A DNA stretch of 64,000 bases from Arbacia lixula (lineage: Eukaryota; Echinodermata; Echinoidea; Arbacioida; Arbaciidae), in the NCBI GenBank assembly GCA_963669155.1, contig OZ022593.1:21238498-21302497 (forward strand), written 5' to 3'. The notes beneath the pieces are model-generated. The model was given only the letters and a program-made list of their open reading frames with translations. It did not search any database and was not told where the DNA came from. The stretch's first letter is position 1. Each line of letters starts with the position of its first letter. Below are positions 15,201 through 62,000 of this stretch, one piece after another. The position numbers and the translations under genes are program-made.

Positions 15201-18200
15201 TTGAAATAATGTGAATACGATGATTGGGATCATTGATTATTTACATTGTAAATAGTTACATGTGTAAAAATAGATATGAGTGAATAATAATAGCTAAAAG
15301 TAATAGAGCATAACATAAGTAGCACAAAGTGTTAACTGTATATTGCATCAGTACTCGCCTGTCATTGGTACTGCTAATGTGATTCTAATCCTCACCTGTC
15401 AATACGATGTATGGATGATATGTTAGACTGCTTGTTTTGCCTGCACCTATTATTATTTGTAATGTTATCATGTACTTCTGTACATTTAAGGCGTGCAACA
15501 CTAATTTTATTCTGTACCACATTACCTTCTGACTAAATTTGGCATGTACATAGCACAGGTTGTACATACTTGACAGGCTACAAACTGTTGACAGACAGAC
15601 ATGTTCAGCGTAGAAATCAATCAGTGATTAGTCCACACTGCTCAGCAGACAGCTCACTCCTGTCTTTCTGCAGCTTTCTCTGTCTGTCTGTGCATCCTGC
15701 TCTGAGCCAAGGTTCAAGCTCCGTAGGTGCAAACCAAACCAGGGGAAACTAAACCAGGGGAAATGTGGAACAACATAAGTAATATAATAATAGCCAACCT
15801 CAAGGAGGGGTAAACAGACAGGTTTACTAACCAAGCTTGAAGGACAGTGCTTGATTGTTTCCTGCCTGCTTGCTTTTAGCCTGGCTTCCAGAATGTTTAG
15901 CATTTCTAATCAACACTCTACCAACAAGAGGTCTGGCTGTAGTAGACTAATTAATCTGTAAGTTTTATCTTGCCACATACAGACTGGGAGTAGATGAGAA
16001 TTAGTCTTTTCTGTATTAGACCTGAATGTATACAGTGTTAGTTTAGATTTGACATATCCAACAGGCTGGAAACCAGGCTGTTTTTCTTTAAAAAGTCACT
16101 TTGATCAGCCAACAGTCATTGTGAGGAGGCGTCAAGCACTTGCTAAGCACCTGTCATAGCCTGCACATACATATAGATGGGTGACAAAGAGGGTTAACCA
16201 CTAAACCAAGGGGAGGGGGGGGGGGGGGGGGGGCTCATGGGGTATGTGTACCATACGTGCATGGGGGATGGGATGCCGGATTGGGGGGGGGGGGGCAATT
16301 ACTATGGGCACGGGGTAACACACCTCTAAAGTGATAAATACGTGTTGAGGGTCTCAACAAAAAACTCTTGAAAAAAATGCCCAGCTCATATACAATGTAC
16401 GTGCAGAAACATGTAGGAATAATATTTAGTTATTTACCTGCATATTTAGCTCCCAAATCTTCCTTTAATATGAACTGGAAGTATCAAAACATTATACCAC
16501 AGCCACATTATGAATACAATATTGTATTCATAATTTGGCTGTGAATATCAAAGTGAACCAAACAGGAACTGATAGTACATTTGAGTAAAGTGCCACTGTT
16601 ATCGCTGTAAGGCTGATGTAAACATAACCCATGTCTCCTGTTATCTTGATCGGGAAGTGTTTGTGTGAGGGGAAGTGTGGTAGTGCATCCTTCCTGGATG
16701 TGAGACTTGAAGAAGACCAGAGGCAAACATTATCAGGACGTGGCTGGACTATACTCTTGACTTCTTGAGGAGGAAGTCTTTTTGCCCACTGTGTGTATCC
16801 TACATGTACATGTATGTTGGCAGTTAGTGACCTATAAGTGCTTGGAAAAAAAAAACCCACATTTTTTTTTTCTAGTCTGCCTTCAGCTGGAAATGTCACT
16901 ATACACAGTGTTTGTGCTGTGCCCACTGATATGCAGATCAGAATAATGACAAGGATGTACATATGAACATGCATGAAGCAAGCTGTTTCATACACGTACA
17001 GCACATCCTGGGTAATATGGAGGATGTTACGTGCTGATACTGAAGCAATAGGCCTACATGTACATTATGTAACTAATTCTGAGATTTGCTGTGAGAGTAT
17101 TTAACACTCTTGCCTGCAATAAAATGCTAATTGAATTTACATTACCATATAATGCAAAGTGTGGTCACATTGATCATGTTATGATAAAAATTATATGTGC
17201 TTTGGCAACATTTTGAGACATTTGAACACCCCATTTCTTCCATCAAATTGGCACTGTCTTTGCAGTATCCTATACCACACATGTCCATGTTGATGTATCA
17301 AGACCAGTGTAAATAGAAGCATGGAAGGAATTTGAGCTTTACTTCCTGGATGAAAGGATCATCATTAGGGCTGACAGTAGTATGCATTACACCTGAAGCT
17401 GAGTTTCTGTAATTTGCTTGCCCGTTGGAGCATACACTTTCCAAAGCAATTAGGCATCCTTTGTTATTACATGCTTCAGTACATACGCTGTATGGAGACA
17501 GATCCTTTTCAATAGTATTGGGGAAAAACAGGATGTAAGGATAAAAGAAAATAGCAACAAGTTCATGATGCAGAAAGTATACAGGAAGTATATTGTATGT
17601 TTGTATATTACGGGGCGTGGCATAGCATGCACATCACTTTCATCAAAAGATTTTACCATCACTGTTACTGGTCAAACAAGGTAAAGAGGGAGAGGTGGGA
17701 AGAAGGATTATGATAGATCAACAAAAACATTACCCTTCCTTGCAATTGAAATTTCTATCATTTCTACTAACTGCCATGCTCTTTTCCAAATTTTCACATG
17801 AGTACAATAACATCAGCTCGTACCATTAATACTGTCTTTTTAAGAAGTACTCGACCGGAAATTGTGCAGTAGTATATGTGCTCAAGTTAAGATCTGTCTT
17901 TTCAATCTGAGTGTGCGAACTTGAGAACTCTAAAAATCCACATGTGTCGATTATTGCTTCATATCATCTGCAGTAGCATGCACTGTCAGCTGTACAGTAA
18001 AATCAACAACCTGTGATCTTGATCCTATTCCCACCTCATTTATGAAAAAGTTTCTTCCTGAATTGGTACCCATTATGACGAACATTATAAATGATTCTTT
18101 TAGAAATGGTAGATTTCCTGATAAGTTCAAATGTGCCAATATCATTCCAAAACTGAAAGGCTCGTCTTGTGATAGTGACAATCTGAAGAATTACCGCCCA

Positions 18201-21200
18201 ATAGCAAACCTTAAATTCTTTGCTAAGATTCTAGAGAAGATGGCAGCACATCAGCTACAAGAATATCTATGTAAATCTGATCTACATGCAAAGTTTCAGT
18301 CAGGATACAGGTCATTTCATAGTGTTGAGACTGCTCTCTTGAGAGTTACAAATGACATTCTGTTGTCACTTGATAGGGGCGAGGAGGTTATGCTTATCTT
18401 GCTTGATTTTTCCTCAGCTTTTGATACCATTGATCACGATATATTGCTTAAACGCTTATCACTAAGATTTGGAATATGTGGTGAAGCACTTAATTGGATG
18501 CAGTCATACTTATCAGGACGTACTCATAATGTAGTCATTGGAAATGATCGGTCTTCAGGACATGTACTCACCAAAGGAGTACCGCAAGGATCTGTATTGG
18601 GTCCAGTCCTGTTTACATTATACACCTCTCCTCTAGAATCTTTAATTGAAAGACATAACATTTTCAAGATGTTTTATGCTGATGACACTCAGTTGTATAT
18701 TACATTCAAACAGTCACGGCTTGAAAATGTTTCTTCTCAGATAGCAAACTGTGTTCAAGCAATCAAAGAATGGTCTCACCAAAACTGTCTCAAGTTAAAT
18801 TGCAGTAAGACAGAGTTCCTTCATGTTTCATCCCGTTTTAGAAATACGACTCCAGTAATTCACTTGGATCTAGCCGGAAAGCAAATTAAAGCTACCAAAA
18901 CATGTAGAAATCTTGGGGTAATTTTCGACAATAAGCTTACATTTGACAATTTCATCACACAAAAATGCCGTTCAGCTTCGTTTGCACTCTACAAAATTGG
19001 TAAAATCCGTGATTTTATTGATAGAAGTACAACTGAACGTTTGGTTCACGCATTTGTTATGTGTCATTTTGACTTCTGCAATAGTCTCCTTTTTCAATTA
19101 CCACTTCGCCAAATTCAAAGACTACAAACTATACAAAATTCAGCAGCGCGACTTGTTACACGTACGAGGAAACATGCTTCAATATCCCCTGTCTTACGTA
19201 ATTTACATTGGTTACCAGTCCAGTCTCGCATTAAGTTCAAGATATTGTTATTAGCCTATGAATGCTTTCATGGATTAGCTCCTGCTTATCTAAATGACTT
19301 ACTCACTGTATACAAACCAACACGAAATCTTCGATCATGTAAAAAGAATTTGTTTATTGTTCCTCCTATACTCACACGAACATATGGTGAACGCTCATTT
19401 GTCCATGCTGCTCCAGTTTTATGGAATAGCCTCCCTGACAGTCTTAGGAATATTAACACCCTAGATAGGTTTAAGTCTGCTCTTAAAACACACTTATTCC
19501 AAATGGCAAAATGATTTAAGGAACTCAGTAACCTCATTTCTCTTTTTCTTTGCTCCTTGAAGCGCATAGAGACTTTCTTATGTATATGTGTTATGCGCTA
19601 TATAAACATGGTTTATTATTATTATTATTACACGCACAAAGATCTTGTTGTATTAGAGGAGAAGTTGAAGGCTTTATGAGTGGCTGGTATGGAGAATTAA
19701 AAGGGAAGGTTGGGAGAAGAAGGGCAAGGTGGAGGAAGAGGCTAGCCTTCGGTCCTGGCTCTGCAAATATGTTTCTTCCTATGTGAACTCTCTTCTTTTT
19801 ATATTATAGATAGAGAGTAAGATGAATTTATTTCATAGTTTGTTTAATTTGTTTAATTGCACAAAAACAATCCTGGAAAGGGCCTTGTATACTGATGTCA
19901 TGTTGCTTTTTTCCTTCCCCTTTTTTTTCACCCGAGACTATAGCATGTATTATATTGGGTGTAACAAATTCGGCCTAACAGCCTTAGATTTGATTTGTCA
20001 ATTACTGTAACGTTCACTCCATGAATTTTCTACCGCCAGCGCAAGATTACTGTGCTGTGGCCTACAGGAATGCATGTAGATTGTATTTGATTTCTCATTT
20101 GAGTTGAATGTAATATTGCAGTGTAGTGGTGAGGATGATGGGACTTGTCATAGTCACGGAACCATTCATATGACTATCATTTTTAAATTCCAATATCGTG
20201 AAATGAATTGAGAATGAGACACCTCATATTTACCTCCACTCTACATGACCTAGAAGTTTACCAAAGGTGTCACTTTGAGTCCATATGGCTTTTATTTTGC
20301 TTGATAGGTAAATTTGTACCTGTCAAGAAAATGTCAACACAGAAATAATACAAGGACCAAAGTTCATTGCCGAGAGTGAAAAGGTTTGCACCTGATTGCT
20401 GTACAAGCATGGGTATAAAAAGCCCCCGCAGAGATGGTGTGTGTACAGTTAGGAAGGCTTTTATTAGTTGAGTAAGATGCATAATATTATTCAAGGATCA
20501 ATATCAGTACTATAACCTGTACAATGTTAGTATGAGTGAGATACTGTGAACATTGTACTGGGCTAATGGTGGTACATACTGGTAGTAGCATAATCATGTT
20601 TTATTCTATTATGAGCTGAAAGGCAACAAATTCTGTAAATGATGGTGAACCCATACCCGACGGCCGACGCAATACAATGTAATATACATGTATTTTGCAG
20701 TGGAAATTGGAAAGAGAAAACCACAAACCCCTGAATGTGAGAAGAATTCTCATTTAGAGTTAAGGCTTGAAGACACAATGTAGACTGTTTATAATTTGGC
20801 AAAAGTCATCGTAAAGTTAGAGAAATTATGTATCCTTGAAAACATTATGATGGACAATTGTCTTTTGATTATTACAGATTTTTCGGTACATGAAAAGAGA
20901 TGCAAAATACTACCAATATCTATCCTAAGTCAACTTTGTTCATGGGGAATGTGTATATTGCAAGACCAAAATGTGAGGAGTATGTTCTGAAGTAGCATCC
21001 ATTGGCAGTGGCAGCACCTTTGTGGTATATGACCATGAAAAAGTATTCAATGGCCTACACTTATAAAACAAATAATGCATCACTGCCACAACGTTTTTAC
21101 TACATTACAGAAGAGTGATATTCATTTATACCAAAAGATACAAACTAGGCTGAAGACGACTGAATGCTGGTCCTTGAGTCCTGGCCAGCCCATTCCCAGA

Positions 21201-25200: not shown

Positions 25201-28200
25201 AGCATACATCTTCTAATCTTGCATTTTCATTGAATACAATGTTAAAAGAATCATGCATTGATACTTGACAGGAGACTACATTCACATCCATCCAATAACT
25301 GGCAGGCAGTGGAGAGTGGCAAGGATCAATCTTATTACTGCTCAGGAAAAATGGCATTTCTGCCACAGACATGTGACCACAATTTTGACATAGAACAGGG
25401 AAAGAGGGAGAGTTAAATTGATTGGATGGGGTGTTGATTTAGAAAGAAACTGTGATCCTTCCTGGCAAATTTTCAAATGGTTTCGTTTCCTAGTTTCCAT
25501 TGAGAGTGCTGTCTGCTGCCCCCGAGGGTTAAAGGACTTGTAGATATGGGGATCATGTAGGACAACCAAGCACATGTATGTGATTAGGGGTTAGAAGTTT
25601 TGATATTAAGTATCAAAAATTATTCAAGATGCTTCAATGAAAGAGCAATATCTGCACAAGACGACCCCTTTATTGTTGTTTGGTGATACTGAATGGATAT
25701 CACCTTTCAAAGAATTTTAATGTGAAGTGAGTGTGAAATCCTCAATTGGTGATGCATTTAAGTGTATTATTACGCAGTTTATTAAATTGCCACATTAAAT
25801 TGTAATTGGCATTCTAAATTGTGTGATCAGGATAACAATGTAATCTGAATATCAATGTTGCTAATATGGAAGCCAAAATTATGATCCAAATACCCTGGTT
25901 TTGAGTGGTCAATGTTAACTTGTTGTTTCAGTGACTTTAAAATGTGACCTGACATTTGTGGAAAGCAGTGGGGGAATGAGAATAGGCTCAAACTGATTAA
26001 TAGGTCAGGAAGAAACGGCAGTCTGGGCACAGCAGTCAGACTGATATAGAACCTGCTGGTAAGATCATGGTAAGGAGGAAAGGATGTAAACCATGATTTA
26101 TGGAGCAATTATGATTGTAGAATAAACAGGATTGTTATTGCGGGAGGTTCCTCTAAGCACTTTCTCTCCCATCAGTAATACAGAGATTTGCTCTATTCTC
26201 ATAGTTGTAAACATGCACAAATGTAAGTAACACAACAAAATCAGACATTTGATACATTTGTTCATACCATTTAGGGTGAAGTTAATAGCTTGTGAGTTTC
26301 TCACAGTATCATAAAAGTTTAAGGAAGATATACTTTTAATCAGGTGCTCATGTGTGTCCAACTTCAGATTCAAGTTTTCCAGAGATTATGCAGTTTTTTT
26401 TTCTTGCAAAGACATAGTATAATGATAACATTTAGTTTTGTGAATAAAACTGTCAAACACAGTGTCTAATGGTAAGACTAGTGTCAGGTTGTAGGTCACA
26501 GGTATGTGACATTCCTTGCATTCTTGAGTACCAGTCAACCAATCAGATGCAGCGGAGTGTGTACCGTTTCAATGGTTTCCCTTTGAGTCTTCAAGAAAGG
26601 TGAGATGTCATGGGGCTTATCTTGTCAAAGTGGCACTTAACACAGTAATGGGCAGGAGGTAGTCAACATGCTTTGTACTGTATCATGCAGTCCTCAAGGG
26701 AATATGCACAGACTTTTGCATTTACAGATTCTTTTTTGTCTCGCCCACCGGAGGTGAAGGCGAGACTAAGGGATCCAAATGGCGTCCGTCCGTCGTCCGT
26801 CCGTCGTCCGTCGTCCGTCCGTCGTCCGTCGTCCGTCCGTCGTCCGTCGTCCGTCCGTCGTCCGTCGTCCGTCCGTCGTCCGTCGTCCGTCCGTCGTCCG
26901 TCGTCCGTCCGTCGTCCGTCGTCCGTCCGTCGTCCGTCGTCCGTCCGTCGTCCGTCGTCCGTCCGTCGTCCGTCGTCCGTCCGTCGTCCGTCGTCCGTCG
27001 TCCGTCACAAATGTTAAAGTTTACCTGCAAGACTCTCTTATGATCCATAACTTGGCAACTGTTACAGCAATGGCAGCCACACTTGGTTGATACAAGCACT
27101 AGGGGTATCTTCATGTTATGGTGTTGTCAGAGGTCATGTGATGATGTCAAAGGTCATTTGAGGTCATATATTAAAGAGTATGTGCAAGACTCTCTTTTTC
27201 TATGTTAAAGTTTACCTGCAAGACTCTCTTTTGACAAATAACTTCACAAAGGTTGCTTGGATTACAACCTAACTTGGGTCATAGATGCACTTGGGGTACC
27301 TTCATGTTATGGTACCGTTGGAGGTCACAGGATAAGGTCAAAGGTCATTTGAGGTCATACATTAAAGTTTACCTGCAAGACTCTCTTTTGACAAATAACT
27401 TCACATGGGTTGCTTGGATTACAACCTAACTTGGGTCATAGATGCACTGGGGGTACCTTCATGTTATGGTACCGTTGGAGGTCACAGGATAAGGTCAAAG
27501 GTCATTTGAGGTCATACGTTAAAGTTTACCTGCAAGACTCTCTTTTGACAAATAACTTCACATGGGTTGCTTGGATTACAACCTAACTTGGGTCATAGAT
27601 GCACTGGGGGTACCTTCATGTTATGGTACCGTTGGAGGTCACAGGATAAGGTCAAAGGTCATTTGAGGTCATACGTTAAAGTTTACCTGCAAGACTCTCT
27701 TTTGACAAATAACTTCACATGGGTTGCTTGGATTACAACCTAACTTGGGTCATAGATGCACTGGGGGTACCTTCATATTATGGTGCCGTTGGAGGTCACA
27801 GGATAAGGTCAAAGGTCATTTGAGGTCATACGTTAAAGTTTACCTGCAAGACTCTCTTTTGACAAATAACTTCACATAGGTTGCTTGGATTACAACCTAA
27901 CTTGGGTCATAGATGCACTGGGGGTACCTTCATGTTATGGTACCATTGGAGGTCACAGGATAAGGTCAAAGGTCATTTGAGGTCGTACGTTAAAGTTTAC
28001 TTGCAAGACTCTCTTATCACACATAACTCATCACATGTTGCTACAATGGCAATCAAACTTGGATGATGGATGCACTGGGGGCACCTGCATGTTATTGTGC
28101 TGTAAGAGGTCACATGATAAGGTCAAAGGTCATTTGAGGTCATACATTAAAGTTTACTTGCAAGACTCTTGGTGAAGGCTTCCTAACTTGTGCACAGAAT

Positions 28201-30367
28201 TCTCCCTATCGCATATAGCCGATATCCAGCGATATCACCTCGCGATACCGATATCTGATCGATTGCTCTTGGAACATATACTTCCGGTAAGAGTTTGTTG
28301 TCGGCGCAAAGTGATCTAGAAATCGCTTTTTTGGATGAATTAATCAGTGAACAATTTATCTAGGGTTAAGGTTATGGTCAGGGTTAGGTGTAGAATTAGG
28401 TTTAGGGTTAGGGTAAGGGTCAGGGTTAGCTTTAGAGTTAAAATTCATAAAATTAGTGGGAAACCGTGGTCCCTATTGTACGGGATGTACGTGGACCGGA
28501 AGTTCGTATCCCAAGAATTAAAGGTAAAATAATTAGAGCGCCACACACGTTCAGATTCGGAGGGCTATATGCGATAGGGAGAATTGTGTGAGCATGTGTG
28601 AGCATTACTGATGTAGATTTAGGCAAACATTACTCATGCACATTTATGCAAATTTATTCAAAGTCACTATTTTGTACCTGATTTTATACAATTCTTTTGC
28701 GTAGCAACGGAGATCGCGATATTTCTGGTTATTTTCGCAAGTGGGCGAGACACAATATTGCTAATGCCTTGTTTGTTATAACTGTAATGTACTTCAGATT
28801 ATAAATTTCTTTGATGATGTATCATTTTTTGTAGTAGTACTAATGATTTGCTTTCTGTAAAAAGGAGTGTTAGACTTCAGTTGTTTAAATGGCATTTATC
28901 ATTAATATCTCATATACATGGAGCAAATTTAAAAATATGCAACTGATCAACATTTTAAAATCCATTTTGGCAGCTAGCTTTTCAAATGAGTAACTATGTC
29001 CATAAATCACTACTAGACCGTGTTTACACTGAACATGTGCCCTTCAAGAATGCAATATGCACAGCAAACTGTGATCTACATATGAATTAGTGACATCACT
29101 GATCATCAAACCAAGGATTAAACACACAAGGCCTCAAGATGATGAAGCCCCTGTAATGCCTGATACCAGAATGAGCCCCTGTAAATAACAAATGAGCCCC
29201 TGTCAAAGTCTATTTTTCTCATAGGGTTTAACACAGTGCATGGTTCAGTGTTTATGGTTTGATGATGTCAGGCTTGGCCTGCCATTGTGTTGTATATTTT
29301 GCTCTGCTTGAACCCAAATCATTCATCAGCTACAGGCCTATGTGTACATGATTACATTGGGTATATACTGTAGATAGATCTAGCCAACCTCTGATGCCTG
29401 TGCCCATGCACATGTTGGGTTCACAGACCTGCAACATATAGGGTGTGTGACACAGTGTTACTAATGATGATTCTCCCATTGCCTTCATGTGTTTTTCGTA
29501 GCACATTTACGTTGTATGTGACGCATTTGACACAAATACAATAGCAGTTGTTACTGGTACAGAAATAAAAGGCTGACATACTGTAAAGTATGTAACTTGA
29601 TACACGTGTATTCTGCCCATGTTATGTTTAAATTGCCTTATATTTGACTCATTTTACACAAATACAATTCCTGCTGGTGCTGCTTACACCTGGACAGTTT
29701 ACCATGCAATGAAAAAATTACAAGGGGATTGAGGATGATTTAACCATAGCAATGCAAAAAGAACCCCTGCGAATATATTTGTCTCTCCCCCCCCCCCCCC
29801 CCCGTTACCATATCATTTTTAAACTACCTCTTACCATATTGAAGTCATTAGTGGTACATGAGGTGTTTATTATTGAAGGGACACCAGCTGGAATGTGAAT
29901 GGGAGGAAGTCAGAGCCAGGTGACATACAGTATTCCATTCAGAACCACAATACTAATGTCGCCCAGGTTAGTATCAGTAGAATGACTCTTTGGATTGGCT
30001 GCATCTGTTTCATAGATTATGTTTATTTCAGCTACTGATATGAAGTAGATTGTATAGGGTGCCATTCATATTGTCTGTTTCTTCTAATACTTCCCCTTAC
30101 ACCAAGCATACAACCAATCGTGGTGAGAGGCTGGTTGTGAGTTCACATCTACCAGAGACTCATGTACCATACAGTTAAGACTGTGACATGGCTGCCAGGA
30201 CTGGGGGGGGGGGGGGGGGGGGGGGGGGGCATCAGGCATCTGGATTGGGGTAAGAGTACTTCATCTTCAAGGATAGTTTTAGTTTTATACTTTGCTTGGA
30301 GACAAAAAGATGATTTGATGAAATGGGATTAGATCAAATGCTTAACCTGGTAATGAGTTCAAAGGGG

Positions 30368-44000: not shown

Positions 44001-47000
44001 AGGTACCTAACTTAGTACTTCCCATATTTCTTGTTTGATTTTCATGGGATCATTTACTGAGTTATATCTCTTTCAGTGCTCCATTTTGAAAGCAGAATTC
44101 TGCTGGAAGTGAGTTATTGCTTATTAGGCACACCTTTACTGAATAGTCTTGTCATTACTCAGTCCTTGGGTAACATGTAAATGGCTGATCTGAAGTTAGA
44201 ACACAATTGTAGTGCCTCCAGAAGCTCTCTTGTGTAGGATGAAGTAAGCCATTATCTTTTCAGAAAATGATAAAGATGACACTGCAGAAATGATCATGTA
44301 AGCCGTTGATTTAATGACTCTTGTTCATTTAGATTTCTTTGGATATTATTAATTGAGTAATTTTCAGTTTCAGTTTCAGCATGAAAGGTGGCTTAGATTG
44401 CAAGGTACATTGTAAATTAAACTAACTTTCGCCTCTCCATAATGATTGTGGACTGGGGTAATTCCCATATGTACACTGTGTGCAGCCTAGTCAGGAGGGA
44501 TTGCATCTACATTGAGGGAAGGAGCTTAGGTGAAGAATGATTGTTTTTCTGCTCGTTGCATTTAAGCAGTGGTATGTGCTTTTTGTGAACAATAACAGGA
44601 AATTCACAGTCTTCCACTACACAGCCATTTATAAAGTAAAGGGAGGCACTGTTTGAATGATAACAGAAGTGCTAATTGGCTACATTCATGTCATGGGTGT
44701 AGGAGATTATTTGGCGAGGTTGTAAGAAAGTTGAATTATTCAATTACAATTGTGGCTTGGTGTCAGGATATGACTGGTGGGAGAATGTACACATGGGAAT
44801 GTGGCAGTAATGTACCCAACCTCAAACAATGCCAACACCCTCGTTAGGATATAGGACTAATAGCACTGCTCAAACACACACCCTCTAGAGGCCAAGGGGA
44901 AATCACCTGATATTTTAAAAATAACAGCCCCCACTCAAAGAGCAAGGAATTTGGAGATCTGTGCTAATATCACAATATGGATGTGCAGAAATGTATGTTG
45001 ACAGTGTTTCAGTTGTTTATTTGTTTTTTCTGGTATATTGACATTTTTTGCATTCTGTATTTAATTGAGATATCAGTCTAAACCCCTATGAATGATACGG
45101 AACCCTTGGGTTTATCCCTAAATGGCTTCAGTCTTCTAACCATGTCAACCAGGTTTGAAATTGATGATGCCATACAAAAGAAAAGTTATGTTTGTTGTGT
45201 GACCAGTCACAACAAACTGCTGCCTGTAAGGTCACTATTTAGCCACATAATAGAGGAGGAATTCCAATCATTGGAAGCCGCCCAGACCAATTGTTGGTGT
45301 GGCACGTTTCAGACTGTCTGCCCTTGATTCCTCACAGGTCAAATACTTACTGGCTTGTGAGAGAAACTTGTAGATAACACATCTTGACGTCAGAGCAAGT
45401 TTTTTATCCATTTTTGGAGGGCTACATCATGGAGAATCAACATTTGAATAGAATGAGATTTTGCTGGATATTAAAGTTAAAATATGATTATTTGATTCTA
45501 AATGCTGAAGAATATACGTTTCTCTTCCTGATGAACCAGAATCAGCGTTTCAAAGTAGATATCCATACATAATTAAAACATGTAAACATAAGAGAACATT
45601 TGAAGACATATTTTGCATGCCACCTTTACTGCAGAGTTCAACAAGCAAAATTACATTACTTGACTTTCTGGATTCAAACTGTAGAAAACAACATTTGGTT
45701 TGAGATTATTTTTGTATATGCTGCTTCTCAAAGAATTGAATTTGGACACACCCTTTATAAGCATTTGTACATTGATGGCTTGATGACCTATATTGTAGGC
45801 TATTTGTCTGTGTACACATGAAGCATGCCCAATGTACATGTAGGTAGAAGGCCGTTTTATCTTCCCTTTCACCTTCTACAATAATAAGCCATGTATTGCA
45901 CTTGATATGACGTCTGATATATTCCTATCTAAGTTTCCTATCTGTAAGGGTGGGAAAAGTCTTCTCATCATTCTCCTGATAAGTCCTGCTGTAGCGCCAT
46001 TGGGTTTTCCTTATACTGAATACCAGAGGAACTCATTTCAAGGGAGGAAAGAGAACTGATATCAGCTACAAGGTTTGCCTGATATGTTAATGTCCTGTAC
46101 AAGGAATGGATAGCAGAGAAGATTCATGAAGATTAATGGGCAGACTCTCAAACTTGGTGTCATGAAACAAAGACAGTAAAATACAATTTGCATTATACCC
46201 ATAGAGAAAAGTAAAGTTTTGCAAAGGGTCTGAAAAGTTGTCTATTTACAAATTTACAGACACTCTCATTCTTCTTGTGGGGGCTAAGTCATCCTGAGCG
46301 CCCCCCCCCCCACACACACATACTGCTTTACATTGCACATGACTTATTTCTGAATTTCTGATCCATCTGACAGATTGACCAGGGTTTGCCAAACCTCAAA
46401 TGAACAGTCTACAGCATAGAATCTTGGCTGACCAAGAGGTGAAGTGGGGGCATCAGCCGGTCATTGAGCCCCCAATCCCCCCACCCCACTGCTTTACACT
46501 GCGGATGACTACTTGTTACCACATTTAAGACCCATTGACCAACAGACTGACCAGTCTACAGTCTAGAATCTTGGCTGACCAAGAGGTGAAGTGGGGGCAT
46601 CAGCCGGTCACTGAGCACCCATCCCCCCACCCCACTGCTTGTTACCACATTTAAGACCCATTAACCAACAGACTGACCAATCTACAGTATAGAATCTTGG
46701 CTGACCAAGAGGTGAGGAGGGGGCATCAGCTGGTCACTGAGCCCCCATCCCCCCACCCCACTGCTTTACACTGCATTTAAGACCCATTAACCAACAGACT
46801 GACCAGTTAGAATCTAGGCTGACCAAGAGGTGAAGTGGGGACATCAGCCGGTCACTGAGCCCCCATCCCCCCACCCCACTGCTTTACACTGCATTTAAGA
46901 CCCATTAACCAACAGACTGACCAATCTACAGTATAGAATCTTGGCTGACCAAGAGGTGAAGTGGGGGCATCAGCCGGTCACTGAGCCCCCATCCCCCCAC

Positions 47001-50000
47001 CCCACTGCGTGTTACTGCATTTCAGACCCATTAACCAACAGACTGACCAGTCTACAGCATAGAATCTAGGCTGACCAAGAGGTGAGGAGGGGGCATCAGC
47101 CGGTCACTGAGCCCCCATCCCCCCACCCCACTGCTTGTTACCACATTTAAGACCCATTAACCAACAGACTGACCAGTTAGAATCTAGGCTGACCAAGAGG
47201 TGAAGTGGGGACATCAGCCGGTCACTGAGCCCCCATCCCCCCACCCAACTGCTTTACACTGCATTTAAGACCCATTAACCAACAGACTGACCAGTCTACA
47301 GTATAGAATCTAGGCTGACCAAGAGGTGAGGTGGGGGCATGAGCCGGTCACTGAGCACCCATCCCCCCACCCCACTGCTTGTTACCACATTTCAGACCCA
47401 TTAACCAACAGACTGACCAGTCTACAGCATAGAATCTAGGCTGACCAAGAGGTGAGGAGGGGGCATCAGCCGGTCACTGAGCCCCCATCCCCCCACCCCA
47501 CTGCTTGTTACCACATTTAATACCCATTAACCAACAGACTGACCAGTTAGAATCTAGGCTGACCAAGAGGTGAAGTGGGGACATCAGCCGGTCACTGAGC
47601 CCCCATCCCCCCACCCAACTGCTTTACACTGCATTTAAGACCCATTAACCAACAGACTGACCAGTCTACAGTATAGAATCTAGGCTGACCAAGAGGTGAG
47701 GTGGGGGCATCAGCCGGTCACTGAGCCCCCATTCCCCCACCCCACTGCTTGTTACCACATTTAAGACCCATTTACCAACAGACTGACCAGTCTACAGTAT
47801 AGAATCTAGGCTGACCAAGAGGTGAAGTGGGGGCATCAGCCGGTCACTGAACCCCCATCCCCCCACCCCACTGCGTGTAACTGCATTTCAGACCCATTAA
47901 CCAACAGACTGACCAGTCTACAGCATAGAATCTAGGCTGACCAAGAGGTTAGGTGGGGGCATGAGCCGGTCACTGAGCCCCCATCCCCCCACCCCACTGA
48001 GTGTTACTGCATTTCAGACCCATTAACCAACAGACTGACCAATCTACAGTATAGAATCTTGGCTGACCAAGAGGTGAAGTGGGGGCATCCGCCGGTCACT
48101 GAGCCCCCATCCCCCCACCCCACTGCGTGTTACTGCATTTCAGACCCATTAACCAACAGACTGACCAGTCTACAGCATAGAATCTAGGCTGACCAAGAGG
48201 TGAGGTGGGGGCATCAGCCGGTCACTGAGCCCCCATCCCCCCACCCCACTGCTTTACACTGCATTTAAGACCCATTAACCAACAGACTGACCAGTCTACA
48301 GTCTAGAATCTAGGCTGACCAAGAGGTGAAGTGGGGGCATCGGCCGGTCACTGAGCCCCCATCCCCCCACCCCACTGCTTTACACTGCATTTAAGACCCA
48401 TTAACCAACAGACTGACCAGTCTACAGCATAGAATCTAGGCTGACCAAGAGGTGAAGTGGGGGCATGAGCCGGTCACTGAGCCCCCATCCCCCCACCCCA
48501 CTGCTTGTTACCACATTTAAGACCCATTTACCAACAGACTGACCAGTCTACAGTATAGAATCTAGGCTGACCAAGAGGTGAAGTGGGGGCATCAGCCGGT
48601 CACTGAACCCCCATCCCCCCACCCCACTGCGTGTAACTGCATTTCAGACCCATTAACCAACAGACTGACCAGTCTACAGCATAGAATCTAGGCTGACCAA
48701 GAGGTGAGGTGGGGGCATGAGCCGGTCACTGAGCCCCCATCCCCCCACCCCACTGCGTGTTACTGCATTTCAGACCCATTAACCAACAGACTGACCAATC
48801 TACAGTATAGAATCTTGGCTGACCAAGAGGTGAAGTGGGGGCATCCGCCGGTCACTGAGCCCCCATCCCCCCACCCCACTGCGTGTTACTGCATTTCAGA
48901 CCCATTAACCAACAGACTGACCAATCTACAGCATAGAATCTAGGCTGACCAAGAGGTGAGGTGGGGGCATCAGCCGGTCACTGAGCCCCCATCCCCCCAC
49001 CCCACTGCTTTACACTGCATTTAAGACCCATTAACCAACAGACTGACCAGTCTACAGTCTAGAATCTAGGCTGACCAAGAGGTGAAGTGGGGGCATCGGC
49101 CGGTCACTGAGCCCCCATCCCCCCACCCCACTGCTTTACACTGCATTTAAGACCCATTAACCAACAGACTGACCAGTCTACAGCATAGAATCTAGGCTGA
49201 CCAAGAGGTGAAGTGGGGGCATGAGCCGGTCACTGAGCCCCCATCCCCCCACCCCACTGCGTGTTACTGCATTTCAGACCCATTAACCAACAGACTGACC
49301 AGTCTACAGCATAGAATCTAGGCTGACCAAGAGGTGAGGAGGGGGCATCAGCCGGTCACTGACCCCCCACCCCACTGCTTTACACTGCATTTACACTGCA
49401 TTTAAGACCCATTAACCAACAGACTGACCAGTCTACAGTATAGAATCTAGGCTGACCAAGAGGTGAGGAGGGGGCATCAGCCGGTCACTGAGGCCCCATC
49501 CCCCCACCCCACTACTTGTTACCACATTTAAGACCCATTAACCAACAGACTGACCAGTTAGAATCTAGGCTGACCAAGAGGTGAAGTGGGGGCATCAGCC
49601 GGTCACTGAGCCCCCATCCCCCCACCCCACTGCGTGTTACCACATTTAAGACCCATTAACCAACAGACTGACCAGTCTATAGCATAGAATCTTGGCTGAC
49701 CAAGAGGTGAAGTGGGGGCATCAGCCGGTCACTGAGCCCCCATCCCCCCACCCCACTGCTTTACACTGCGGATGACTACTTGTTACCACATTTAAGACCC
49801 ATTAACCAACAGACTGACCAGTCTACAGCATAGAATCTTGGCTGACCAAGAGGTGAAGTGGGGGCATCAGCCGGTCACTGAGCCCCCATCCCCCCACCCC
49901 ACTGCTTTACACTGCGGATGACTACTTGTTACCACATTTAAGACCCATTAACCAACAGACTGACCAGTCTATAGCATAGAATCTTGGCTGACCAAGAGGT

Positions 50001-53000
50001 GAAGTGGGGGCGTCAGCCGGTCATTGAGGTTGTCACCTCTAGATATGAATAGCAGTGAAGGGGCCATCAGTACGTCATTAATGGCTCATGTTTGTCACTG
50101 GGTATGATCTCCATGTATCAAGCAATACTCCTCATGTAATGGTGCACAGTGTGCACACTGCAGGGGTCTTGATATTGGGGATTTCATGAGGTATGAACAT
50201 TGAAACTGTCCTTCACATTATTCAATAAAATCTAACTAAATAAATTATATACATTCACCCATACTTTTATTATAAACCCTAAGCCTAAATTCTTTTCTCA
50301 AACTCCTACTCTAAACTCCAATCTAACCCTAACCCTAACCCTAATTCTAATTCTAATTCTAATCGTAAACATTTACAATAATCCCAACCCAAACCATCAT
50401 AACTCCAATCCCTATATATCAGCCTATGATTGTAAACCAAATGCCAAGGGTCCCGTTTTGAGTAGCTATGAAAGTGTGTTCCTCTATCTGAAGACACACA
50501 AGCCTATGATTTGCGGGCTTGCCTCTATGACTTCTGTTCACCCACATGATGAATCAGCCCTGATATAAATATTGACAGAGAAGATTAGATGCGATAATCA
50601 AATTTCCTTCCCCAGTCCAGCCGTGTTGGTTGGCCGGTCCTGGCCGGTCAGTCAGGCCCCCTTGTCCTCCCCAATCACCCCCAATCACCTCATATCACCT
50701 CCCATCACCCGGCAAGGTTAGGAGACAATTTGTCAGACCCTCCTTAGTAATTCATTTGCAGTTTATTTTTAACCTATAATTATTTAGTATGAAGGTGCTA
50801 GAGAGCTGCCGACCAGTAGGATTCTAGGATGATGTAAATGGTATGATATGACAGTACGACTCTACATGAGTACACATTATTAGTGTGCAGTTACTGTAAG
50901 AGTGTGTTTCACTTCTCTTTATGTCTTCCTTTCTTTGAAATATTATCTTTTTAATAGATGAAATGTTGAGGAATGCTGACCTGAATAATAAGAATTGCAT
51001 TTTTGGGAAAAGACTCTTATGGAGAGCCATGAAAATTTAAGAGATCTGAAGACTTTTGGTCCATCTTATTTTGGCTGCTACCTCAACTTTCAAATTGCCC
51101 TTTAGGAAAAAGTATACCTCTTTTCTAGTAGGAATTACTTCTATTCATTTTCATATCTCACCTCTCTCTCTTCTTCCTTCATATTTCACATGATGGCTCA
51201 AGTTTAACTTTAATGTCTTGTCTCATCTGTACTGCTAAATTCTTCCTCCTTGAGTCCTGTAGTCCCTCAATTCATGAGAATTACTTTAAGTGTGGTAATG
51301 AAAGGCCCTAGACCTAAGCACGTACGCTGTTTCCAAAACAAGCCTATTTGGCTCAGAAGTAAGAACCGCAATGTTTGGTCGCGCAGCAGTCTGTTACGGC
51401 ATCAGGATATCCGATGCTTCTCTTGTTTCCCTGTGGTGCTCCTACCATGTCTTCCTTCTCATGTATCTGCCTTCATTCTGCCTTCATAGCAGCCTGAAAG
51501 GAAGTTATTACTGAATAACTGGGCTGCTTTCCTGTCATTAATCTAGAAGGAAACATTGAACTACAGGAAGTTTTGGTGATCTGGTTGAACATGCAATGCT
51601 AGAATTGTTCACACACTCAGAAACATGAACTTTGATGGTACACAGTTTCTGAAATATCAACTCTGAAACGGCTCTGTTGTGGTTGAATATTATGAATCTA
51701 AGCATGGGGTACTTCCCAACATTCAATTATTTTTTATCTGGATGATAAATCAATGATTGCTTGAAATCAAACTGTGAGCTATTATCTATATTCCAAAGTA
51801 CATTCAGACCCAATCTATACATGTGCAACGAACCCTGTGTGCACAGGGCACATATTATTAATCACACATACCAATTTCCAATCCATGAGAATGTGCCTGT
51901 TACAATACTGTGTTGTATGAACACTATGGGTTAGAGCAGTCACACTACCACCAATTTCCCCACCACTGGACATTTTTTGGCTACTAATACCCAATGCTCC
52001 GCAATGGCAGAGACCACATGGAGTGTCACGGTTGGGTGATAGCATGATGAAAGATGTTATTCCAGAGTATGTCTTCACATACGTCTTAACATACGTCTTC
52101 ACATACAGTGTGTATCTTTAAAAACATTTATATATCTTTACATTCATCTTTACATAGGTCTTCATATATGTATTTACATACGTTGTCTCCATGACAATAA
52201 AAATGTGGCAATAAGCCTGTGCTGTCATGCTACTGCACTATGCCTAGGGCATTGCTCTACCCTCCAAGACAACATTCAAACCAGAAACTTCCTGTTATGA
52301 CAAGTACAATGGCCATGTTAGATAAAGGCGTATGAGATCGCTCTATCACACGCACATAGTCTCACAGTCAGAGAAGATGAGACATCAGTAATCTCTGGAC
52401 AGCTTCCTTCCACAACTACATTCACACCCAGGCAATTTTCATGATAAATCTGTTGCTTTTTTTTGTACTGTTCTTCATTTTATTACTTATCATGAATCAA
52501 AGATTGATGGGTCCTTAATACGTATTCTTATCTTTTCTTATCATGACGATAGTACAGAAGATAAATCTACCTTGCCTGTAATATAGGCTATATTATAATA
52601 TTTCTGCCATATCAGCACTATAAAGTCTCCTAATGTAACCCATGTCTGTGCCAGATACGGTGTTGCTCTATGGGACGGGTGTATTGCTGGTGTAAATTGG
52701 GACGATGGCACATAAAGAGGTAGTTTATTGACTGGTAATTTGAGCTGACTGTCTTCTGACAAGGAAACACTGTGGTTATGAATCCCTCTTAACATTCACT
52801 TTTTAAAGGCAGACTCAATATTATCCTGTCATTCTATATGAAGTATTGTGTATTACCTCAAGGAAACTTCTTGGAAAGAGGGAACATAAATTACAATTAT
52901 GGTTTCTAAAAGAACTGAAGCAGAAACTACATTATTGATATACTCTACTCTATCTGTAGTACTGCAGTGTAAAGCTTTATGAAGAGATTTGAAGTCATGC

Positions 53001-56000: not shown

Positions 56001-59000
56001 AGGAGGGGACACACACCTAGACACTACAGGGGAGGACACACACCTAGACACTCCAGGGGAGGGGGGGGGGGGGCACACACCTAGACACTCCAGGGGGGGG
56101 GGGGGACACACACCTAGGCACTCTAGGGGGGAACACACACCTAGACACTCCAGGAGGGGACACACACCTAGACACTACAGGGGGGGGACACACACCTAGA
56201 CACTCCAGGGGGGGGGGGGGGGGGGAGGGCATACACCTAGACGCTACATGGGGGACACACACCTAGACACTCCAGGGGGGACACACACCTAGACACTACA
56301 TGGGGGACACACACCTAGACACTACATGGGGGACACATACCTAGACACTACAGGGGGTGAACATTCAGGAATAATAATAAATAATACTATGCCTGATGGA
56401 AACTGATTGATTGTAATCGAATAAATCATCTAATCAAGTTAAATATGGCTATAAATTGATTGTATCTCTCCTTATTTTCTGCTACAATTGATTGTAATAA
56501 GATCAAATGTATTATATTACCTGATGTAGGAATGTTCTCAATATTCCTTCTCTTTGCTCTCCGCTCCAGATTACGGTGGGCCTACTCGCTCCCAGCCTGC
56601 CCAGCCGGCCCCTGACCCTGGCTACCGGCCTGGCGGTACTCGCAGCGTAAGGGCACCTGTCGCCAAGCCGTCTACAGGGGGCGCTCAGCCTGCCAGCACT
56701 CTGCCCGTCTGCAGCAAGTGCAACCGCAACATCATGTGAGTCCCTGGTGGTAGTAGCCAGGTTACTGAGTCTCTGGTAGGGGTAGGCAGGTTACTGAGTC
56801 TCTGGTGGTGTTAGCCAGGTTACTGAGTCTCTGGTGGGGGTAGGCAGGTTACTGAGTCTCTGGTGGGGGTAGTCAGGTTACTGAGTCTCTGGTAGGGGTA
56901 GGCAGGTTACTGAGTCTGTGGTGGGGGTAGGCAGGTTACTGAGTCTCTGGTGGGGGTAAGCAGGTTACTGAGTCGCTGGTGGGGTAGGCAGGTTACTGAG
57001 TCTCTGGTGGGGGTAAGCAGGTTACTGAGTCTCTGGTGGGGTAGGCAGGTTACTGAGTCTCTGGTAGGGGTAGGCAGGTTACTGAGTCTCTGGTGGTGTT
57101 AGCCAGGTTACTGAGTCACTGGTAGGGGTAGGCAGGTTACTGAGTCGCTGGTGGGGTAGGCAGGTTACTGAGTCTCTGGTAGGGGTAGGCAGGTTACTGA
57201 GTCTCTGGTAGGGGTAGGCAGGTTACTGATTCCCTGGTAGTGGTAGGCAGGTTACTGAGTCTCTGGTGGGGGTAGGCAGGTTACTGAGTCTGTGGTGGTG
57301 TTAGCCAGGTTACTGAGTCTCTGGTGGGGGTAGGCAGGTTACTGAGTCTCTGGTAGGGGTAGGCAGGTTACTGAGTCTCTGGTAGGGGTAGGCAGGTTAC
57401 TGAGTCTCTGGTGGGGGTAGGCAGGTTACTGAGTCTCTGGTAGGGGTAGGCAGGTTACTGAGTCTCTGGTAGGGGTAGGCAGGTTACTGAGTCACTGGTA
57501 GGGGTAGGCAGGTTACTGAGTCTCTGGTAGGGGTAGGCAGGTTACTGAGTCTCTGGTAGGGGTAGGCAGGTTACTGAGTCTCTGGTAGGGGTAGGCAGGT
57601 TACTGAGTCTCTGGTGAGGGTAGGCAGGTTACTGAGTCACTGGTAGGGGTAGGCAGGTTACTGAGTCACTGGTAGGGGTAGGCAGGTTACTGAGTCTCTG
57701 GTAGGGGTAGGCAGGTTACTGAGTCTCTGGTGGTGGTAGCCAAGTTACTGATTCTCTGGTGGGGGTAGGCAGGTTACTGAGTCTCTGGTAGGGGTAGGCA
57801 GGTTACTGAGTCTCTGGTAGGGGTAAAAGGTTACTGATTCTCTGGTAGGGGTAGGCAGGTTACTGAGTCTCTGGTAGGGGTAGACAGGTTACTGAGTCTC
57901 TTGTGGGGGCAGGCAGGTTACTGATTCCCTGGTAGTGGTAGGCAGGTTACTGAGTCTCTGGTGGGGGTAGGCAGGTTACTGAGTCTCTGGTGGGGGTAGG
58001 CAGGTTACTGAGTCTGTGGTAGGGGTAGGCAGGTTACTGAGTCTCTGGTAGGGGTAGGCAGGTTACTGAGTCTCTGGTGGTGGTAGCCAAGTTACTGATT
58101 CTCTGGTGGGGGTAGGCAGGTTACTGAGTCTCTGGTAGGGGTAGGCAGGTTACTGAGTCTCTGGTAGGGGTAGGCAGGTTACTGAGTCTCTGGTAGGGGT
58201 AGGCAGGTTACTGAGTCTCTGGTAGGGGTAGGCAGGTTACTGAGTCACTGGTAGGGGTAGGCAGGTTACTGAGTCTCTGGTGGTGTTAGCCAGGTTACTG
58301 AGTCTCTGGTGGGGGTAGGCAGGTTACTGAGTCTGTGGTAGGGGTAGGCAGGTTACTGAGTCTCTGGTAGGGGTAGGCAGGTTACTGAGTCTCTGGTAGG
58401 GGTAGGCAGGTTACTGAGTCTCTGGTGGGGGTAGGCAGGTTACTGATTCTCTGGTAGGGGTAGGCAGGTTACTGAGTCTCTGGTAGGGGTAGACAGGTTA
58501 CTGAGTCTCTTGTGGGGGCAGGCAGGTTACTGATTCCCTGGTAGTGGTAGGCAGGTTACTGAGTCTGTGGTGGGGGTAGGCAGGTTACTGAGTCTGTGGT
58601 GGGGGTAGGCAGGTTACTGAGTCTGTGGTGGGGGTAGGCAGGTTACTGAGGCCCTAGCAGGGGTAGGCAGGTTACTGAGTCTCTGGTAGGGGTAGGCAGG
58701 TTACTGAGTCTGTGGTAGGGGTAGGCAGGTTACTGAGTCTCTGGTAGGGGTAGGCAGGTTACTGAGTCTCTGGTGGGGGTAGGCAGGTTACTGAGTCTCT
58801 GGTAGGGGTAGGCAGGTTACTGAGTCTCTGGTGGTGTTAGCCAGGTTACTGAGTCTGTGGTGGGGGTAGGCAGGTTACTGAGTCTCTGGTAGGGGTAGGC
58901 AGGTTACTGAGTCTCTGGTAGGGGTAGCCAGGTTACTGAGTCTCTGGTAGGGGTAGGCAGGTTACTGAGTCTCTGGTGGGGGTAGGCAGGTTACTGAGTC

Positions 59001-62000
59001 TCTGGTAGGGGTAGGCAGGTTACTGAGTCACTGGTAGGGGTAGGCAGGTTACTGAGTCTGTGGTGGGGGTAGGCAGGCTACTGAGTCTCTGGTGGGGGTA
59101 GGCAGGTTACTGAGTCTCTGGTGGGGTAGGCAGGTTACTGAGTCTCTGGTGGGGGTAGGCAGGTTACTGAGTCTCTGGTAGGGATAGGGAGGTTACTGAG
59201 TCTCTGGTAGGGGCAGGCAGGTTACTGAGTCTCTGGTAGGGATAGGGAGGTTACTGAGTCTCTGGTGGGGGTAGGCAGGTTACTGAGTCTCTGGTGGGGG
59301 TAGGCAGGTTACTGAGTCTCTGGTGGGGGTAGGGAGGTTACTGAGTCTCTGGTAGGGATAGGGAGGTTACTGAGTCTCTGGTAGGGGTAGGCAGGTTACT
59401 GAGTCTCTGATGGGGGTAGGCAGGTTACTGAGTCCCTTGTAGGGATAGGGAGGTTACTGAGTCTCTGGTGGGGGTAGGCAGGTTACTGAGTGTCACTGGT
59501 AGGGGTAGGCAGGTTACTGAGTCTCTGGTGGGGGTAGGCAGGTTACTGAGTCGCTGGTGGGGTAGGCAGGTTACTGAGTCTCTGATAGGGGTAGGCAGGT
59601 TACTGAGTCTCTGGTGGGGGTAGGCAGGTTACTGAGGCCCTAGCAGGGGTAGGCAGGTTACTGTGGGACTCTATGGGGGAGTGGGGATATGGGGGTGTTA
59701 TAAGACAGTTGGGATGTGGTGAGGGGGTGTGGTTTAGTGGTTTGGAACCCTGAGACTGAGGAACTAGTATGTTCAAACTCCACCATGGCACAGTGAGGCC
59801 CAAACTTAATCCACATTGCTGCCCTCCACCCAAGGAGTCTGAACTTTTGAGAGGAGAAAGGCAAAATAACTGGGCTGAAATTCTTCTCACTTGCCTTTTG
59901 ATAGTTTGTATATTGAATGAAGTCAGAAAAGTTGTAGTTGAATATCCTCAAAATTTTACTTGCCAATATGAAATCCTTGGAAGCATGTACATGATAGATG
60001 ACCACGGGGTGGAGTGCTATATACCCATGTAGTTAGTGTACCTTGTGGATCAGTCACATCAATCATTCCTATTGCTGCAAAACCAGAACATTCTTGACTT
60101 AGCAAGTTAATAATACAGAAGTGAGTGATGTATTCACTAGCCGTGAGAAACATATGAAAGACATTAGAACATGGCGTCCAGACAGATGTATCGTTAACCT
60201 TAAGCATATATTCTTGGAGTTAAATCCACTAACAAAACTCCCTATTATGTATGTCTCTGTTTCATGCAGGGGACCATTTGTGAAGGTGCGTGGTAACCCT
60301 CTTCACGACACCTGCTTCACCTGCGAGTCATGCGGACTGTCTCTACGCAACAAAGGTGAGAAATGGTCACCACTCAGAGGATGTGCTCTTGTGATGGCAT
60401 GCAGTCAAACCTGTCTATTAAGACCACGCCAAGGCAAAGAGAAAAGGAAATCTCCATGGACTGGTGGTCTATGTATGCAGGAGCATTGTATGCTTACTGC
60501 TCCAAGTTGGGATATCTTGCAGCTGGTCTTTTATTATGTCCTTTTATTCGGCATGCTATCGTCCTGTTTAAATGTGTTTCAATACAGTATAAAATGGGTA
60601 TGGCACTATTAACACTGAATATGAACTAAACTGTGAACTTGGTACCCATAATTGCTACTACTGTATCAATACAGTGTTTTAAAAATTTGATTTTGTGTTA
60701 GGATTAGAATTTGACTTGATTCTGAACTTTAGAATGAAATGCTCTTCATTTGCTTCATTCAGAATCAGATTTGTTGCAAAATGGAAATTGTTTTATCTCT
60801 TGGACCTATCATGGTAGTTAATGCAATACATAGTTTTACGTAAGTATGGACAAGCTGAATTCCATAAGTAAAACAATGTCCATTGAGATACCAAAGATGC
60901 TGAATAGGTAAACACATCATTTTGTCTGAGTTTGAATAACCAATAATTCATGCTTTAATTGTAAAAAAGTAATGAAGTATTTCTTATGCAATGTTCTCAT
61001 GATTATTCTACAGGAGATGGAGAAGGTATGAAATGGCAAAATTTCATCGCCAAATCAAATGCTTTGCTTTAAATCACCAATTCCTTATTTAATCCTACAT
61101 TAATCAGATTAACTTTGGATCCAGGTCATCATATTTCAGAAAATGGGCATAATTAACATTCCTATTTATTATTTTGCTTAATATCATATATTTTTTCATG
61201 CCATTAATGGAAAATATGTCAATATTATATAATGTTTTAATAAACAAAATGTATTTATGGAAATTGAAATAGTTTAAAACTTCAAGCTTTCTGATTTTGT
61301 TTTCACAAATATGTGTACTAAGTATACTAATGTCATTTTTTAAAACCACACCAGGTTTTCAGGGAACCACTAACACTATTGATACTAATGCTTTAATGGA
61401 AGTTGCAAAATTGTAATTTCATGCAAATACTTGATAAAATGGGTTTAATTTTCTAATGGATAAAACCCCCTCGATCAACTAATAATGCTGTTTTTTTTTT
61501 CAGAGAAAGTACATGCAAAGCAACAACAAAAGTGACATGCTTATCATGCTTTACGATATTAATAAATGTAACATAAAAACAAAGAAGAGCAATAAAAAAG
61601 ATGCAAACATACACAAAAAGAATGTCAAAGTGTCAACAAATCTGAAAACTCATATCTCATGGATGATATGGTCAAGCAAACCCTGGCAAGAAAGCTATTT
61701 CAGAGGGTGTCAGTGGTGCACACATGAAGTCACTGTCATGATCTGTCTAAAAATTCCAATTATAGTATCATGATTGACCTACATATTATGCCCCCTGTGG
61801 ACATCTGTTTTGGATCAGATAACATTATATATTTATGCTTATGTTTCTGTCAACAAGGCATATATAATGATACCACTTTTGAAATGTTTTGTATCTCATT
61901 TAGAATCAATGTCCACAGATATTTCTTAGTGAAAAAAAGACCAACAGCTTGGCATTCTAATAAAATCCAGTATATATCATTTAAAATGTAAAACAAGGTT

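Follow-up and report, generated by a model that had tools for sequence, protein, structure and literature searches.

Helentron-derived HINEs are described as inserting into T-rich DNA (PMC7492417, PMC4067079). One of them, Cg_HINE of Crassostrea gigas, contains a 5' subterminal inverted repeat (subTIR) of 11–12 bp with a nearby complementary inverted repeat, followed by a GTCC-type microsatellite, central satellite-like repeats and a 3' subTIR, and inserts into T-rich sites without target duplication (PMC7492417). Bivalve Pearl elements, which go back to Gaffney et al. (2003) and are cited here after PMC7492417 and PMC5139131, are inverted-repeat elements without coding capacity, and their central repeats of about 160 bp form short arrays. 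The bivalve monomers BIV160 and Cg170 are reported to share two well-conserved motifs (PMC5139131). DINE-1 of Drosophila and the HINEs of the mite Metaseiulus occidentalis follow the same modular plan and are called non-autonomous Helentrons, the mite HINEs being described as lacking the inverted repeat (PMC4067079).

In our study, an element of this plan was found at 26738–28772 of the window, the whole stretch of 64,000 nucleotides of Arbacia lixula DNA that was analysed. We consider it likely that its array of 157-bp monomers, which is rich in AGGTCA half-sites, represents the central tandem repeats of a Pearl/HINE-type non-autonomous Helentron that was recently active, and that the array was copied whole with the element. 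All the features listed above for Cg_HINE were shared by the window element. The likeness to Pearl is one of general description, up to six central repeats being reported for Pearl (PMC7492417, PMC5139131) against seven in the window. Two conserved blocks, as in BIV160 and Cg170 (PMC5139131), were also present in the window monomers, a likeness in the number of blocks. DINE-1 and the mite HINEs were likened by plan only, and the inverted repeat of the window element sets it apart from the latter (PMC4067079).

Ends, modules and central array of the element

The element was found to contain the following parts, listed with their positions in the window.

26733..26737, + strand, T-rich site of insertion, directly 5' of the element; TTNTT abuts the element in 39/39 copies with a recognised 5' end
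26738..26749, + strand, 5' subTIR GTCTCGCCCACC; exact in 38/40 copies and with at most one mismatch in 39/40
26753..26766, + strand, internal inverted repeat GGTGAAGGCGAGAC, which pairs with the 5' subTIR to give a hairpin
26787..26999, + strand, CGTCCGTC-type microsatellite (GTCC type); 18-bp unit, 11.8 copies
27014..28146, + strand, central array; seven monomers of 157 bp and one partial duplication of the head, 34 bp long (27171–27204)
27131..28142, + strand, 26 perfect AGGTCA half-sites in seven clusters, giving six perfect DR1 and six perfect DR4
28147..28170, + strand, truncated last monomer head
28179..28772, + strand, right flank of the element, which is a derivative by internal deletion; nested insertion included
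28202..28581, + strand, nested unrelated inverted-repeat element, with AATT direct repeats at 28198–28201 and 28582–28585
28741..28751, + strand, 3' subTIR GTGGGCGAGAC
28752..28772, + strand, 3' terminus ACAATATTGCTAATGCCTTGT; contains the 8-bp palindrome CAATATTG (28753–28760)

Several features by which HINEs are recognised were found in the window element: subterminal inverted repeats of 11–15 bp at both ends, a complementary inverted repeat close to the 5' subTIR, as described for DINE-1 and oyster HINEs, and a microsatellite 5' of the central repeats, which is of GTCC type in several oyster HINEs. The 11-bp subTIRs GTCTCGCCCAC and GTGGGCGAGAC were exact in the window. The hairpin at 26738–26775, folded as DNA, had an energy of -11.3 kcal/mol (z -4.49), and none of 200 shuffles was equally stable. 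HINEs are expected to carry a palindrome or stem-loop beyond the 3' subTIR; the palindrome CAATATTG that follows it here was only 8 bp long, and its folds did not exceed those of shuffled sequence in stability (z 0.37 and 0.63). The 5' subTIR was not recognised in copy L032; in the other 39 copies, its distance to the array ranged between 60 and 324 bp. The 3' subTIR and terminus together were exact in 36 of the 40 copies and had at most three mismatches in all 40, with differing DNA beyond. The original prediction had labelled the array a satellite; with defined ends and differing flanks, the label should instead be central repeats of a transposon.

The monomers were found to start at 27014, 27205, 27362, 27519, 27676, 27833 and 27990. 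The step was exactly 157 bp, except for 191 bp between monomers 1 and 2, where the 34-bp partial copy of the monomer head was inserted. The half-sites were located at offsets 117, 130, 137 and 147 of the monomer (0-based), with typical spacings of 7, 1 and 4; all four at these spacings were contained in five of the seven monomers, the second half-site being absent from the first monomer and the fourth from the sixth. The consensus array of the 40 copies contained 27 half-sites. The perfect DR1 motif was taken as AGGTCANAGGTCA. The description of 157-bp units with AGGTCA clustered at spacings 7, 1 and 4 in the original prediction was accurate, and its six perfect DR1 and about six DR4 agreed with our count for the window copy. 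Its placement of the array in intron 1 was not confirmed, the exon calls being weak and under the Pfam cut-offs (LIM, 19.0 bits against 22.9; DUF4749, 15.1 against 28.7).

The 26 half-sites are not independent, because one unit was amplified by duplication. In the window outside the element, a stretch of 157 bp contained at most two AGGTCA per strand (61,808 stretches per strand). The window as a whole contained 55 AGGTCA against 45 expected, and 55 or more were present in 11 of 100 shuffles, so the excess is not significant. Some other hexamer was found at least four times in 166 of 3000 random 157-bp stretches taken from the window outside the element; the commonest of these all came from one other repeat family of the window. 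A fourfold hexamer within 157 bp is in itself not rare in this window, mostly through other tandem repeats.

The nested element at 28202–28581 had 19-bp ends, CTCCCTATCGCATATAGCC, and a TAGGGT-like stretch within. This end was detected at two of the 40 loci, namely the window and, at some point within it, L021. The uninterrupted site was matched letter for letter in 26 of the 40 copies.

Elsewhere in the window, tandem repeats with a 126-bp unit occupied some 3.5 kb (46508–50028) and ended in a 146-bp form. The window also contained a 29-bp minisatellite in about 101 copies (56737–59663) and a 526-codon open frame with a reverse transcriptase domain at 17934–19514 (PF00078, E 3.2e-34). A search of the window with Rfam at gathering scores gave no matches, and neither the head nor the tail of the monomer was matched as an exact pattern in viral_contigs or genome_contigs.

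Copies of the element and the search for its parent

The genome (606,990,701 bases in 590 contigs) was searched with the 1180-bp array as query. A total of 1239 first-look candidates were found and the best 40 were scored, the window being one of them; since only the best 40 of 1239 were scored, the copy number is a lower bound. The scored copies matched at 98–100% (98–99% for the 39 other than the window); in 37 the match extended across the whole 1180-bp query, and in the remaining three it ended at position 1172 or 1178. A genome-wide count of the 157-bp unit had been suggested, and at least 40 near-identical arrays, the window included, were found, the larger figure being one of candidates. 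The suggestion that a mobile element spreads such clusters was supported by these arrays, all six perfect DR1 being kept in 29 of the 40 copies and three in L014. The copies were found through the array, so its presence in all 40 says nothing about its retention.

The other 39 copies were retrieved with their flanks, and the flanking DNA was found to vary between copies. The first base 3' of the element was T in 33 of the 40 copies. Among the 39 copies with both flanks, the left and right flanks were identical over 2 bp in 22, over 3 bp in seven and over 4 bp in three, and an identity of 5 or 6 bp was found in none. The identities of two to four bases were read as T on both sides, though a very short duplication is formally possible. 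The target was thus T-rich and without a target-site duplication, as in HINEs. No diverged relatives of the element were found in the 156,975 bp of flanks (BLAST, E 1e-4).

The copies carry differing internal deletions. When the part from the array to the 3' end was compared by simple matching of prefixes and suffixes, 26 distinct structures were obtained among the 40 copies, a count that takes the nested insertion of the window and small changes as differences. At the junction, the two sides shared 1–3 bp in 24 of the 40 copies, 10 bp in one and none in four; a single additional base was present in one copy, and for ten this matching gave no split.

Copy L038 was found to contain a frame starting MAYTCNRCGKSF, 231 bp past the array end as counted from the translation, which matched C2H2 zinc fingers (PF13894, E 5.9e-6; PF00096, E 6.5e-6). 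Part of the same frame was present in L014, L017, L019 and L022, which with L038 makes five of the 40 copies; L017 contained a stop inside the frame. These five copies differed in their internal deletions, and the longest copies show part of the sequence that is deleted in the others. A zinc finger is described for Helitron replicases (PMC4067079), and the frame is probably the start of the replicase gene of the parent. As the frame lies downstream of the array, the array may lie upstream of that gene.

The Helitron Rep domain PF14214 was matched by 43 of 44 candidates in the same genome and by none in 14 control genomes; the Pfam check was run on one of the candidates. Of the 43 matches, 34 had scores of 125–132 bits, and 16 of these lay in open frames, each exactly 3278 codons long. 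The large number of open copies suggests recent activity. The 34 Rep genes of similar score were located at loci L050–L077 of this genome and at six further places, and the translated genes contained repeated NKY..HFKQ motifs ahead of the Rep domain. Neither the subTIR nor the zinc finger was present in 30 Rep-domain loci, and no autonomous parent with both the array and a Rep gene was seen among them. The link between the array family and the Rep genes is therefore one that we infer.

Conservation and decay of the half-sites

The seven monomers of the window were found to be of three types, the first, the last and five alike. The number of variable positions was 2 of 24 in the half-sites, 4 of 12 in the spacers, 1 of 26 in the head, 39 of 91 in the middle and 2 of 4 in the last four bases. 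The half-sites were less variable than the middle (Fisher p 0.0015) and than the whole rest of the monomer (p 0.008), but no different from the head plus end (p 1.0) or from the spacers (p 0.15). When the half-site mask was rotated along the monomer, 13 of the 157 rotations, the true position included, had as few variable positions. The 26-bp head contained no AGGTCA and was conserved as well as the half-sites. The head and the tail adjoin across the monomer junctions; both are conserved, whereas the middle diverges. Something keeps the tail and the head alike, and it is not specific to AGGTCA.

The decay of the half-sites after insertion was studied in 40 arrays (the 39 retrieved and that of the window), L043 being entered without its first monomer. 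The 162 half-site positions contained 37 substitutions in 6461 base readings against 37.3 expected, the expectation being derived from non-half-site positions with the same neighbours, with CpG left out. The 95% range of the observed/expected ratio was 0.70–1.37, and when the half-site mask was shifted along the array, the rate was as low or lower in 38% of shifts. In the half-sites and elsewhere, respectively, the substitution rate was 0.0028 and 0.0059 for A, 0.0065 and 0.0058 for C, 0.0097 and 0.0099 for G, and 0.0028 and 0.0042 for T. The lower rate of A in the half-sites than elsewhere counts against an account of neutral decay. The rate in the monomer head was 0.0041, somewhat below that of the remainder (0.0066), whereas CpG sites reached 0.050.

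The half-sites of the 40 young copies thus change at the neutral rate, and purifying selection was not detected in them. The preservation of half-sites above flanking positions among copies, which was raised in the original prediction, was not observed, and host-level selection on the half-sites was rejected for the class of young copies by the same counts. Half-sites that change as fast as their flanks, as in these 40 copies, are the first half of what the original prediction named as its refutation. The power of the comparison is limited, since the copies are young and were picked by their similarity to the array of the window. The result covers the young copies as a class, and weak selection or rare exapted copies lie outside its reach. 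In the copies examined, the motifs and the surrounding DNA decay at about equal rates, so nothing here shows that the host uses them as switches.

Origin of the array and comparison with known systems

Several other explanations of the array were considered. Tandem 157-bp monomers would also be expected of an ordinary satellite that stands free of any transposon. Such a satellite is hardly conceivable here and was rejected, the element ends contradicting it at this locus: fixed 5' and 3' modules lie beside differing flanks, with the 5' subTIR in 39 of the 40 copies and the 3' end in all 40. A function at the level of the host, in which the dispersed clusters would bring genes under receptor control or draw receptors off as a sink, appears quite improbable. 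The 40 arrays contained 225 perfect DR1 and the 156,975 bp of flanks none, although with a chance expectation of about 0.02 in these flanks the contrast shows only that the element carries the motifs. Precedents for such a function exist in the DR2 and HNF4 sites of Alu (PMC1785376, PMC3252374), but the neutral decay of the half-sites after insertion argues against it here.

The array might instead be the own enhancer or promoter of the parent, through which host nuclear receptors would drive the Helentron replicase gene just downstream. The zinc-finger frame 231 bp past the array in L038, partial in four other copies, is consistent with this, as are the zinc finger described for Helitron replicases (PMC4067079) and the half-sites kept between otherwise diverged monomers (2/24 variable against 39/91 in the middle). 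We regard this reading as doubtful: no Rep or helicase domain was linked to the zinc-finger frame, the AGGTCA-free head is equally conserved (1/26), and 13 of the 157 mask rotations do as well. If it were true, hormone or metabolite signalling would be linked to transposition. An extended form of it appears unlikely, in which a Helentron with seven composite DR1/DR4 sites upstream of its replicase gene would be switched on to transpose by host receptor signalling, while its internally deleted offspring would scatter a receptor-responsive module. A tentative but possible explanation is that the conserved tail with its AGGTCA cluster and the head together form a recombination or protein-binding block for homogenisation of the array or for Rep binding, the likeness to receptor sites being incidental. 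The conserved head and tail, adjoining at the monomer junctions while the middle diverges, agree with such a block; against it, the link between junctions and motifs was without statistical support in the bivalve study (PMC5139131).

The preferred explanation remains that of a non-autonomous Helentron with its central repeats. The array would have been copied whole with the element to many places; the copying presumably started from a Helentron parent and was of the rolling-circle type. The AGGTCA clusters would be ancestral sequence of the monomer, multiplying because the element multiplies, and in the young copies they decay neutrally after insertion. The head and the tail, as the conserved parts of the monomer, may matter to the element and not to the host, through its own transcription, replicase binding or homogenisation of the array. 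The copies examined, as a class, are not maintained for receptor binding, and the receptor-type motifs are most likely passengers of copying. Host receptors that bind DR1 or DR4 could be expected to bind these motifs in vitro. As numerous young copies of a single array stand at different sites, they form a natural experiment on the fate of receptor motifs supplied in bulk, which may be put to use, ignored or silenced. A striking cluster of motifs thus becomes a testable case of a transposon dispersing perfect receptor motifs.

A literature search that took the two subjects separately gave no example of HINE central repeats with perfect DR1/DR4 clusters. The general idea is not new, since Alu provides precedents for both receptor motifs and a receptor sink. 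Alu is a SINE. It is likewise a transposon family with many nuclear-receptor motifs, as described in two reports (PMC1785376, PMC3252374): 90% of human consensus DR2 motifs were found in Alu repeats (PMC1785376), and Alu also holds many HNF4 sites, for which a sink effect is discussed (PMC3252374). The motifs of Alu are accompanied by ChIP and reporter data, whereas those of the window are perfect, clustered DR1 and DR4 sequence motifs in a Helentron-type central array. The window element differs from Cg_HINE (PMC7492417) in its genome, its nested element and its weak 3' palindrome, and the likeness between the two is one of plan.
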